Shown piece after piece: positions 7,782 through 43,019 of a DNA stretch of 47,073 nt. The notes under the pieces are model-generated. The model saw only the letters and a program-made list of their open reading frames with translations, did not search any database and was not told where the DNA came from. The position numbers and the translations under genes were made by a program. Each line of letters opens with the position of its first letter. Within the stretch, counting starts at the first letter, position 1. Source of the DNA: Rhodospirillales bacterium (GTDB taxonomy: Bacteria > Pseudomonadota > Alphaproteobacteria > Acetobacterales > Acetobacteraceae); assembly GCA_025359905.1 (NCBI GenBank), contig JANYDF010000009.1, forward strand, positions 1-47,073, in the 5' to 3' direction.

Positions 7782-7977
7782 ATTGGTCTTCCGCTGCCTG
7801 AATGCCGCACGATGTTGTGCAGTGACTGCGTTTTGACCGGCTAAACTGACGTGAAGCTGACGTTTGAGCGCCGGAAATTGCAATATATTTTTGTGTTTGC
7901 GCGTCGTTTTCAGGGAATAGATGCACGGCGCACCGGAAAATTCGTGCTTGCCGTGCCCCCTCGTTGGGTGGGGCAGC

Positions 7978-12930: not shown

Positions 12931-13461
12931 CTAGCGGCGCGCGCGGCGGCGCAGCAGCCCGCCACCGAGCAGCATGCCGGCGAGCAGCGTCAGGCTGGCC
13001 GGTTCCGGAACCGAGCTTGCGCCCGCGACGCTGAGGATCAGGCGGGTGTCGTAGACGTTCCACGAACCGGCGATGTCGAGAAAGAAATTATGTGCGTCGA
13101 ACGAAACACGACTCGCCCCAAACGGGGTGCTCGTGTAGCGATCGATGCCGTTCTGGGCGACGGTGACATCGGTCAACGCGAAGGCCGGGAAATTGATGAC
13201 GTCGTAAACGCCGTTCGACGATCCTGCATTGATCGAAATGGTGAGCTGATTACCCGAAGCATTCAACTCGTTGTAGATGCCCCAGGAAATCGTGGCGCCA
13301 TTGGCGAGGCCGCTGGCCGAGCTAAAGATTGTGTTGGTCGGCCGGAATTCGTCCTCGAACACCAGAGTTTGGCCATCGAGCAAACCTGCTTGCGCCGGGG
13401 CAAGCGACGACAGGCCAGCCAGACCGCACAGCGCGACGGCTGCAATTTTCTAAATCTTCAT
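12931..13461 (-). pseudogene. PEP-CTERM protein gene with amber codon at codon 4
   Basis: The frame encodes a secreted protein: a signal peptide (KIAAVALCGLAGLSSLAPAQ), a beta-rich middle (residues about 30-150) and a C-terminal sorting signal VPEPASLTLLAGMLLGGGLL followed by RRRARR, the PEP-CTERM anchor recognised by exosortase. The natural start MKI at 13461-13453 is followed by TAG (13450-13452), so the signal peptide cannot be made from this ATG without suppression. No ATG or GTG lies between the stop and the end of the signal peptide; the first in-frame TTG (13383) is after it. Otherwise the frame is intact, so the mutation is recent, a sequencing error, or the true start is a rare ATT. 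No exosortase gene is in the window. Confidence 0.65.
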
Positions 13462-40458: not shown

Positions 40459-41475
40459 ATGACCAGCCGTGAAACCCCGTTGCTGGCCCGTTACGCCGAG
40501 GGTCTGTTCTGGATGGCGCGCTATCTGGAGCGCGTCGAGAATCTGGCCCGGCTGGTCGATGTCACCCAAGGCTTCGAGACGCCGGGCCGCGAGGCGGAAA
40601 GCTGGTTCTCGCTGGTGCGCATTAACGCCGATGAGGAAGGCTTCGCGCGCCGTGGCCTTGCCCCCGGTGCCGACGAGGTGAAGCACTTCTATCTGCTCGA
40701 CCAAGGTAACCCGACCAGCATTCCAGCCAACCTGGAAGCCGCGCGCACCAATGCGCGCACGCTTCGCCCGCTGATTTCCACCGAAATGTGGATGCAGTTG
40801 AATGTGTTTCACCGCGACATGACGGCGATTTCGCCGGAGGCGCTGCAAGGCGACCGGCTATCGCGGCTGTGCGTGCGGGTGAAGGAGGGGGTGCAGGCGC
40901 ATACCGGCATCACCGAGGGCACGTTCTTCCGTGATGAAGGCTGGTGCTTCTACCAGCTTGGCCGCCTGATCGAGCGCGCCGACCAAACCACTCGGCTGTT
41001 GGATATCCGTTACCATCTGCTGGTGCCGCAGGCGGGCGAGGAACGGCGGGTGGCCGAGCTCACGCAGTGGTTCTCGGTGCTGCGCGCCGCCGCCGGCTAC
41101 CACGCGTTCCGCCGCGTCGCCCAGCCGGGCTTTACGCCAACCGACGTGGTGGCGTTCCTGCTGACCGACATGGCGTTTCCGCGCAGCGTGGCGCTGTGCG
41201 TGGAGCAAATGGAATGGCTGCTGGGCCAGTTGCGTGGCCGCTACAAGCTGCGCGGCACGGTGCCGGCGCTGGAGCGCGTGGAGGAACTGCGCGCGGGCCT
41301 GACCGGGCGGCCGGTGGAAAGCCTGGTGAGCGACGGATTGCACCATTTCCTCGACGGGGTGCAGCGCGACCTGATCATGCTGGCAGCCGAGATCGGCACC
41401 GCGTTCTTCCGCGATTGGCGCCCGCTGGCCGACACAGCGGCGGGCGGCCAGGGACAGTCACAAACGCAAGGGTAG
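40459..41475 (+). CDS. Alpha-E domain protein
   Basis: A 338-residue all-helical alpha-E protein: LLARYAEGLFWMARYLERVE, NLARLVDVTQGFETPGREA, GWCFYQLGRLIERADQTTRL and DVVAFLLTDMAFPRSVALCV. It is the constant partner of the permuted ATP-grasp enzyme. In the usual locus a transglutaminase-like protease and a proteasome-like peptidase follow, but none is here. A start GTG/ATG upstream at 40426 is rejected; GGGAGGG precedes the ATG at 40459. Confidence 0.9.
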   Translation: MTSRETPLLARYAEGLFWMARYLERVENLARLVDVTQGFETPGREAESWFSLVRINADEEGFARRGLAPGADEVKHFYLLDQGNPTSIPANLEAARTNARTLRPLISTEMWMQLNVFHRDMTAISPEALQGDRLSRLCVRVKEGVQAHTGITEGTFFRDEGWCFYQLGRLIERADQTTRLLDIRYHLLVPQAGEERRVAELTQWFSVLRAAAGYHAFRRVAQPGFTPTDVVAFLLTDMAFPRSVALCVEQMEWLLGQLRGRYKLRGTVPALERVEELRAGLTGRPVESLVSDGLHHFLDGVQRDLIMLAAEIGTAFFRDWRPLADTAAGGQGQSQTQG

Positions 41476-41576
41476 CGGCGCACGAGCCGCGCGTGCCGCC
41501 CATGCGCGGGTGCGGTATCACGATTCCGTGATGTGTGGCATTAATCATTAATCTATCACGCTGAGGGGTTCTGGCT

Positions 41577-41585
41577 TGGTATAAT
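41577..41585 (+). promoter_or_regulatory. Candidate extended -10 promoter
   Basis: TGGTATAAT is a TG-n extended -10 with a perfect TATAAT, in the AT-rich 250-bp gap before the small membrane protein at 41726 (140 bp downstream). No matching -35 box is present. Nearby, CGTCATC and GATGACG (41595-41617) form a 7-bp inverted repeat. The gap holds no other gene. Confidence 0.45.
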
Positions 41586-41725
41586 TATCATTAACGTCAT
41601 CTGGTCACGTGATGACGGCGTGGGGCCAGAATCCCTGCGATGAACATAAGATTGCGCAATGGGTGCCGGTATGATTTCGTTGGGATTTTTCGAAGCTGCC
41701 CAAGTCCGGCCGATCGCTGGCGCAT

Positions 41726-41968
41726 ATGGTGGCAGCCATGCGTAGCGCCCCAGCGCCCCGGACGATTGACAGCCGGCCGCACGGCACGCCGCAGCGCCCA
41801 GCGCGGCGCATGCCGGTGGCCTCGTACGAGACAGACCCAGCGCGCTACGGCCGCCGGTTCGTGGTGCAGACGCAAAATGCCGCCAAGCCGGCCTATTGGG
41901 TGGCGTTCGAATATGCCGTGCTGGCGGGCACCATCGGGTCGTTGCTGTATATCGCTTTCGGCTACTGA
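41726..41968 (+). CDS. Small single-span membrane protein, EY-motif copy 1
   Basis: An 80-residue protein (or 76 from ATG 41738). The first 50 residues are basic and Pro/Arg-rich (RTIDSRPHGTPQRPARRM) and the last 28 are KPAYWVAFEYAVLAGTIGSL ending LLYIAFGY, one membrane span at the very C-terminus. The segment from Lys-Pro on aligns residue by residue with the protein at 42184, so they are paralogues. The Phe-Glu-Tyr-Ala followed by a hydrophobic helix recalls Flp-type pilin precursors, but the Gly before the cleavage point of those is absent. No known function. Confidence 0.65.
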   Translation: MVAAMRSAPAPRTIDSRPHGTPQRPARRMPVASYETDPARYGRRFVVQTQNAAKPAYWVAFEYAVLAGTIGSLLYIAFGY

Positions 41969-42064
41969 CGCCCGCTTGCGCTGACGACGCTTGCGCTGGC
42001 GGCCGCTCGATTGTTCGGTGTGCCACACGGCCGCCAAATTGCGGCCATCGGCGCGACAAAAATA

Positions 42065-42083
42065 TGTGGGAAAATTTCCCACA
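42065..42083. promoter_or_regulatory. Perfect 19-bp palindrome
   Basis: TGTGGGAAAATTTCCCACA is an exact palindrome around a central A, 97 bp after the first small membrane-protein gene and 101 bp before the second. It is followed by AAAA but the location and symmetry favour a dimeric-regulator operator; a hairpin is also possible. Confidence 0.6.
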
Positions 42084-42183
42084 AAACCCGTTTTCGTCAG
42101 CTCCACGTCAGCCAGCCCGGTCACCTTCGCCTCGTCCGCAGCGCAACGCCACCCAGCGGACACGACGAGAAGGACCAATACCG

Positions 42184-42429
42184 ATGAGCTACGCCGCGAC
42201 GGCCACCTACTCAGCCTCCACCCTGCGCGCCGTATCGGCCCATCGCCCATCTGGCGCCGTCCGCCGCCCGATTGCGCATCCGGCCGCGATCCTGGCCGCG
42301 CGCGCCAACTGCAATTCGGCCCGCATCCTGGTGCGCAGCCAATATGCCATGAAGCCGCTGGCGCTCGTTGCGTTCGAATACGCCATTGTGGCCGCATCCA
42401 TGGCCACCGCCATCTACCTGACGCTCTGA
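42184..42429 (+). CDS. Small single-span membrane protein, EY-motif copy 2
   Basis: An 81-residue protein from ATG at 42184 with GAGAAGGACC about 8 nt upstream. Basic N-terminal 50 residues, then RILVRSQYAMKPLALVAFEY and AIVAASMATAIYLTL as a C-terminal membrane span. RxLVxxQxAxKPxxxVAFEYA is shared with the gene at 41726. Both end within a few residues of the span, an arrangement for tail-anchored or pilin-like proteins. Transcription may be controlled by the 19-bp palindrome upstream. Confidence 0.72.
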   Translation: MSYAATATYSASTLRAVSAHRPSGAVRRPIAHPAAILAARANCNSARILVRSQYAMKPLALVAFEYAIVAASMATAIYLTL

Positions 42430-42451
42430 CGCTGCACGGCCGCACCAGGGC

Positions 42452-42820
42452 CTAGCCGCCCGCGTGGCGCTCCGGCCCCGGTTCCAGCGCTACTGTCACC
42501 GCCCCCCAAAATTGAACGCCGTTCGTATCGCCTGCCGCAATAGCCCGGCGACGCATGGTCGCTGCGTGGGCGCGGGCGGTCAGCGGATGCTGTCCTGCGG
42601 CGAGCAAGGCGCTTGCCATGCCGTCGGCGGAATGCTGCTCAAGCGCCGGCAGCACGCGGCGCAGATAGCTTTGCCATGTAGCACCTTGCGCCAGCGCGCC
42701 GCGCCGTTGCTCGTAAGCATCCTCGCGCGCCAGTTCGTCGGCCGGAACGTCGTGGAACAGCATTGCCCCAGCGCGGCCGGGGGCGTGCGATAATAATTCG
42801 GTCGCGTGAGAGAGAAGCAT
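42452..42820 (-). CDS. Hypothetical protein
   Basis: A 122-residue mostly helical protein: MLLSHATELLSHAPGRAGAM, LAREDAYEQRRGALAQGATW, HPLTARAHAATMRRRAIAAG, and the end GDTNGVQFWGAVTVALEPG. AGGAGG 9 nt upstream fixes the ATG at 42820; an upstream in-frame extension is not supported. The sequence is soluble, without export signal. I do not recognise the family. It lies downstream of the F0 operon and converges with the small membrane gene at 42184. Confidence 0.65.
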   Translation of the reverse strand: MLLSHATELLSHAPGRAGAMLFHDVPADELAREDAYEQRRGALAQGATWQSYLRRVLPALEQHSADGMASALLAAGQHPLTARAHAATMRRRAIAAGDTNGVQFWGAVTVALEPGPERHAGG

Positions 42821-42962
42821 CGCAGCCGCCTCCTTTTGCCGGGCGTGATCGATGCCGTCACTACGCTCGGCACCGTCGCGCCGATTGTGGCGCGCGTCAC
42901 GACTCCGCCGGGAAGCGGGTAAAGATCTCGTGAAGACCGGCGCAAGACGGCCGCCAAACAGC

Positions 42963-42993
42963 AAAACGCCCGGAACGCTGCGCGTTCCGGGCG
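42963..42993 (-). terminator. Intrinsic terminator of the F0 operon
   Basis: On the minus strand CGCCCGGAACG and CGTTCCGGGCG form an 11-bp perfect stem (42967-42993) with a 5-nt loop, followed by TTTT (42966-42963). It lies 27 nt past the stop of the subunit b gene. Confidence 0.88.
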
Positions 42994-43019
42994 ATGTATG
43001 TGCCGATCCGGCCGAGACG

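Follow-up and report, generated by a model that had tools for sequence, protein, structure and literature searches.

P1, P2 and the Palindrome Between Them

Two small genes, P1 and P2, stand on either side of a perfect palindrome in the window, that is, the whole stretch of 47,073 nucleotides analyzed here, and the locus raises the question of whether the pair forms a unit around this palindrome or whether the palindrome belongs to something wider. The palindrome proved to be more important than the pair, which by itself is a modest, lineage-specific curiosity. The features concerned are the following:

41577–41585, plus strand: extended −10-like string TGGTATAAT, about 150 bp 5′ of P1, seen in the sequence
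41726–41968, plus strand: P1 read from its first start (80 aa), or 41738–41968 read from ATG (76 aa); tail-anchored-like; congener alignment and codon statistics
42065–42083, no strand: palindrome TGTGGGAAAATTTCCCACA, proposed DUF6502 operator of P2
42184–42429, plus strand: P2, tail-anchored-like, 81 aa; paralogues C127 and C73

Open frames were found at both P1 and P2, with the common motif KPxxxVAFEYA[VI] followed by one C-terminal hydrophobic span, as the sequence-only reading had described; this stretch leaves 3 or 4 residues to the C-terminus. A single pairwise BLASTP comparison gave 33% identity over 73 aa (E 7e-10), and P1 and P2 are, judged by their sequences, paralogues. Because the match spans 73 aa, the N-terminal parts are also weakly alike. 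Third-position GC was 0.82 for P1 and 0.82 for P2. Values of dS and dN were 3.42 and 0.65 between P1 and its congener counterpart and 0.66 and 0.38 between P2 and the C127 paralogue, with little contrast between P2 and the congener P2 (dS 0.69, dN 0.64). P1 probably starts at the in-frame ATG at 41738, favoured over 41726 because the ATGCGTAG start there is where the congener alignment begins. The pair lies on the plus strand, with a gene that we take to be of the alpha-E type on one side and an ATP synthase b-like gene on the other.

An extended −10 promoter had been proposed in front of the pair. The string TGGTATAAT is indeed present, but the congener has TATGATATTAAT near that place, so that the extended −10 is not kept as such, and a sigma-70 scan of 41400–43000 reported no promoter-like site. 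Also 5′ of P1, the TAG closing a 28-codon frame at 41659–41745 (plus strand) overlaps with the ATGCGTAG at which P1 starts, and a 26-codon frame of unlike sequence shows the same overlap in the congener; this may reflect translational coupling or chance. The string ATTAATCATTAAT at 41540–41552 (plus strand) lies 5′ of P1, and an identical string lies 5′ of the congener P1.

A Small Membrane-Protein Family

A search of the own genome with P2 yielded two further copies, C127 (53% identity) and C73 (43%), and a six-sequence profile added C89 and C92 in the same genome and C231 in the congener (E 1e-5 to 3e-4), which makes up to six copies in the own genome and three in the congener, G001. A family-profile search, of the kind that had been suggested for the C-terminal segment, thus found extra copies, all in the same genus: over 299 genomes of the taxonomic family, with about 18 candidates scored per genome out of up to about 300, 2 genomes matched at E ≤ 0.001, both of them from this genus. 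An additional search, in which near records may be left out, found no confirmed relative. The family is likely, though not proved, to be genus-restricted, as scoring covered just part of the first-look candidates. When P1 or P2 alone served as the query, weak hits in G070, G039 and G020 (E 0.003–0.009; long frames, one with a stop) were judged to be chance, as was the lone NCBIfam match, MamE, obtained for one of the nine members (E 0.67). None of the nine matched any Pfam model at E ≤ 1.

In the nine-member alignment K57, P58 and E65 (P2 numbering) were invariant. In the N-terminal part, Lys/Arg residues number 6 to 10 and Asp/Glu residues 0 to 4; the helix stops 2 to 6 residues short of the C-terminus. 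According to the positive-inside rule, by which the basic side stays cytoplasmic, we infer from this Lys/Arg-rich composition a cytoplasmic N-terminus.

Like Flp/Tad prepilins, the family has EY before a hydrophobic helix, with E at +5 of a would-be cleavage site followed by Y. That P1 and P2 are divergent prepilins of this type is nevertheless extremely improbable and was rejected. The residues at −1 in the nine members are Y, A, L, A, G, L, L, V and A, so the absence of the cleavage Gly noticed earlier in P1 and P2 (Tyr and Ala) extends to the family, with Gly in 1/9; moreover, the leader would be about 50 residues long, the helix lies at the extreme C-terminus, and Pfam pilin models are among those that no member matched.

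G001, the only congener whose genome was searched, also has the P1–P2 pair, with gene order and flanking genes unchanged. Five of the seven loci, however, are single-copy (C127, C73, C89 and C92 in the own genome and C231 in the congener), with the pair at 2/7, and the pair is therefore not a strict unit. The earlier proposal of a paired unit around the palindrome did not survive this comparison, since homologues occur singly and the palindrome does not stand before P1; pair and palindrome are both kept in the congener, but most loci are unpaired.

The Palindrome in the Window and Across the Genome

The perfect palindrome of 19 bp that had been claimed between P1 and P2 was confirmed as exact at 42065–42083, with arms of nine and one central base, and its proposed regulatory role appears justified by sequence comparison. 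It is downstream of P1, 97 bp past the stop, and precedes the P2 start by 118 bp. With up to 3 mismatches allowed, it has one match in the window and none in 100 shuffles. Counted from box start to ATG, the box stands at −118 in P2, −119 in C127 and −122 in the congener P2, and no box better than three mismatches of ten was found upstream of P1, C73, C89, C92 or C231.

Across the own genome, TGGGAAANTTTCCCA at one mismatch occurred in four places and its backwards control in none; the 14-position box GTGGGAANNNTTCCCAC at ≤1 mismatch, a pattern derived in part from this genome, likewise gave 4 places against 0. GTGGG-N7-CCCAC stands in four places of the 4.63-Mb genome outside three tRNA genes. 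The four box places are P2, the lone C127 paralogue, and two on C28, where the boxes lie 81 bp apart in the spacer that separates a DUF6502 gene from a divergent response-regulator gene. At up to 2/14 mismatches there was no enrichment (6 places versus 10 for the control), and GTGGG-N7-CCCAC counted 7 versus 4, 3 of the 7 being tRNA T-arms. Loose-match counts do not exceed controls, so location and the A/T core carry the case.

Association of the Box With DUF6502 Genes

The C28 gene product matched DUF6502 (PF20112) over residues 15–274 with 99.2 bits, against a curated cut-off of 27. Pfam PF20112 is an unnamed family with no function given, and the literature library searched contained no paper with the term DUF6502. 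In 100 relatives, DUF6502 was present in 12 genomes (13 genes) and the box at ≤1 mismatch in 26, comprising 11/12 genomes that have DUF6502 and 15/88 that lack it. The exact box occurred in eight genomes, seven of which have DUF6502, compared to 5/92 of the others (Fisher 4e-7, kinship ignored). The eighth is the congener: next to the same response regulator, close to where a contig ends, it has two exact GTGGG-N7-CCCAC sites; its assembly gave no match to DUF6502. In G030, which is without DUF6502, a unit containing a GTGGGAAAANTGCCCAC-like palindrome is present on L070 in three tandem copies (2584, 3025 and 3466).

Within 300 bp upstream of the DUF6502 profile match, 21 of the first 24 DUF6502 genes carry the 14-position box at ≤3/14 mismatches (shuffle p ≤ 0.01 each), often as two sites 27–36 bp apart; the three others are those of G605, G414 and G518. 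Twenty-two more genes, taken phylum-wide, included 8 with GTGGG-N7-CCCAC at ≤1 mismatch plus a site at G897, and three with the A/T-flanked variants ATGGG..CCCAT or TTGGG..CCCAA; in the remaining 10 no box was found upstream by reading. In total, the box stands upstream of 29/46 DUF6502 genes of Pseudomonadota. Most of these sites have A or T next to GGG, and the centre varies while GTGGG/CCCAC is kept. Three of four named plasmids have the exact box (Pseudoroseomonas cervicalis, Methylocystis iwaonis and Azospirillum lipoferum 4B); in the fourth, from Rhizobium etli CFN 42, the HRK helix described below was present and no box was found. The same box thus stands before DUF6502 genes far beyond this genus, which the sequence-only reading had missed.

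Covariation of the Box With the DUF6502 Recognition Helix

A G-x-HRK helix is encoded by 34/46 DUF6502 genes, and the other 12 have HRR, TRK, TRR, NRK, NRR, PRR or QRR. The box at ≤1 mismatch was observed in 29/34 genes with HRK and in 0/12 without it (Fisher 1.6e-7, kinship ignored). Among the five HRK genes without the box, those of G548, G793, G681 and G899d carry A/T-flanked variants and that of G764 neither. HRK was also present in all four named plasmids, checked afterwards, of which 3 are boxed. The sequences themselves show where the boxes lie, that they go with DUF6502 and that they covary with its recognition helix. This covariation is the best evidence here to suggest that DUF6502 itself, and not the response regulator, reads the box.

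Genes Next to DUF6502

The genes that flank DUF6502 include the following:

L013 804–1493, minus strand: OmpR-family response regulator, phosphorylation position occupied by Glu; shared with the congener and G028
L016 from about 10528, plus strand: putative DUF5666 protein (assigned by eye), next after DUF6502; five (D/E)RGxG repeats close to the N-terminus

The response regulator has the receiver and winged-helix domains of the OmpR/PhoB family, both above cut-off (Response_reg PF00072, 87.5 bits; Trans_reg_C PF00486, 52.4 bits), and is BasR-like over its whole length. It differs from that family in that a Glu aligns with the Asp of BasR and DrrD, the phospho-acceptor Asp being absent in the three genomes seen. 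The gene divergent from DUF6502 is this regulator in the own genome, the congener and G028, a HATPase in G004, a pentapeptide-repeat gene in G087, a haem peroxidase gene in G016 and a glycosyltransferase gene in Methylocystis iwaonis. Other boxes stand near genes for a haem peroxidase (G005) and RgpF-like proteins (G007, and G004 below cut-off), and these neighbours hint at cell-surface functions. The gene after DUF6502 was annotated as DUF5666 in all four named plasmids. Its repeats are DRGIGGTG-like here, with R replaced by H or N in two of the four named species.

A Proposed DUF6502 Operator and Its Alternatives

We propose that DUF6502 is an autoregulated transcription factor that binds the palindrome, with P2 and C127 as its targets in this genome, a reading that we consider probable. 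A DUF6502 dimer, encoded on C28, would bind GTGGG-N7-CCCAC in its own promoter, a region also serving the divergent response regulator of the OmpR family (the one with Glu in place of the phospho-acceptor Asp), and also in the promoters of two paralogues, P2 in the window and the lone C127 copy. The products of these would be small proteins of the inner membrane, with their basic N-terminus in the cytoplasm and a helix at the C-terminus beginning at KP...EY; we expect contact of this helix with a membrane partner to be their mode of action. P1 would be a paralogue next door and no evident DUF6502 target. Binding, the sign of regulation, and the topology and function of the membrane proteins are what we infer from the sequences. 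DUF6502, an unnamed family in many Pseudomonadota, would thereby gain a predicted role, a DNA site, a recognition helix and targets, and a small membrane-protein family without a Pfam or NCBIfam model a predicted dedicated switch.

The palindrome could instead be the site of the divergent response regulator, with DUF6502 merely one of its targets, as the position of this regulator beside the boxes in the own genome, the congener and G028 would allow. We regard this as unlikely, given that the box stays with DUF6502 when the divergent gene is a different one (G004, G087 and Methylocystis iwaonis) and tracks the DUF6502 recognition helix. In addition, OmpR-family proteins mostly bind direct repeats, and P2 has such a repeat of its own at 42095–42112. 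Somewhat less likely still, the box at P2 and C127 would have been inherited from one duplication, without present function; these two are the closest paralogues, and C73, C89 and C92 lack the box, but between P2 and the congener the box is identical at 17/17 positions while most of the flanking sequence has diverged.

It is very improbable that the palindrome is a terminator or another RNA or DNA hairpin between P1 and P2. Its distance from the P1 stop would suit a terminator, and a scan flagged it as terminator-like on the minus strand, with a T-rich tail; however, two terminator-like sites were found versus 1.6 in shuffles, and this sequence is found in front of genes, in DUF6502 promoters as well as ahead of C127, with only GTGGG/CCCAC kept around a varying centre.

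Predicted DUF6502 Structure and HetR

HetR is the cyanobacterial heterocyst regulator, a master switch of cell differentiation. A DUF6502 model built from 23 sequences (mean pLDDT 85, pTM 0.70) contains a helix-turn-helix domain, and its first Foldseek row in the PDB was HetR with DNA (E 3.9e-3, probability 0.94, TM 0.33, rmsd 10.5), the next row having E 0.5. In VIA-align, HetR rows had Z values of 9.5 to 7.1 over 218–234 residues, the best over 234 residues at rmsd 6.1, compared to Z 7.0 over 55 residues for the next unrelated row and Z 5–7 over 45–73 residues for other helix-turn-helix and winged-helix families, although such values can reflect a common arrangement. A shallower model gave the same first structural rows. 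HetR is thus the best structural match of the predicted fold over 234 residues, but a loose one. A match to the HetR helix-turn-helix domain alone means little because DUF2285 has likewise been compared to it, according to parts of PMC10359603.

Sequence methods gave no link: hhalign of DUF6502 against HetR reached E 0.55 with a shallow HetR alignment (Neff 1.1), HMMER ranked HetR no better than shuffles, the Pfam matches of the 23 members at E ≤ 10 included no HetR model, and a HetR search in the plasmids found no match. In titles and abstract openings of the literature on HetR outside cyanobacteria, no claim was found. Passages of PMC4192349 describe the hetP site GAGGGGTCTAACCCCTC as a 17-bp inverted repeat, which can also be read as GAGGG-N7-CCCTC, and passages of PMC4649674 report that HetR contacts it via Arg62, Lys73 and Glu71, with GGG-N5-CCC indispensable. 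The DUF6502 box, with GGG-N7-CCC, resembles it in make-up and overall length but differs in spacing, so that it does not contain the HetR operator GGG-N5-CCC. Autoregulation is common to HetR and, as proposed, DUF6502. As site spacing differs, sequence methods see nothing and the structural match is loose, we call DUF6502 'HetR-like' on the strength of its model and do not file it as HetR.

It is conceivable, and in our view unlikely, that DUF6502 is a remote proteobacterial counterpart of HetR, with its exported operon partner DUF5666 and the (D/E)RGxG repeats of the latter in the role of the PatS/PatX peptides of HetR, and small tail-anchored proteins among the outputs. HetR itself is inhibited by RGSGR-type peptides. 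The repeats were rejected as a PatS-like peptide because their R is not conserved, and for that reason this part is kept just as a bold reading. If true, it would place a HetR-plus-peptide switch outside cyanobacteria and imply an older origin of such control; a HetR likeness reflecting descent would bear on the origin of a classic developmental regulator.

A Direct Repeat in the P2 Promoter

Between the palindrome and P2 lies a further element:

42095–42112, plus strand: direct repeat CGTCAGC-N4-CGTCAGC before P2, 11-bp period, kept in the congener

The 11-bp period is that of OmpR/PhoB-type response-regulator sites, and a regulator of the OmpR type may bind here, perhaps the one beside DUF6502; this repeat was not seen by eye in the response regulator's own spacer. 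The own genome has one other exact copy (C64) and seven at one mismatch. As a dedicated regulon marker the repeat was rejected, with 94/97 matches at ≤2 mismatches versus 48/46 for the control, and only exact and GTCAGCTTCACGTCAG-like copies look meaningful. Past the C64 copy comes a short region with a terminator-like hairpin at its end, and a further copy is on C160. In the window, a copy with one mismatch at 7845–7862 (minus strand) precedes a secreted Gly/His-rich repeat protein. Elsewhere in the window, a frame at 12931–13383 (minus strand) ends in VPEP, a hydrophobic stretch and RRRARR, resembling a PEP-CTERM sorting signal.
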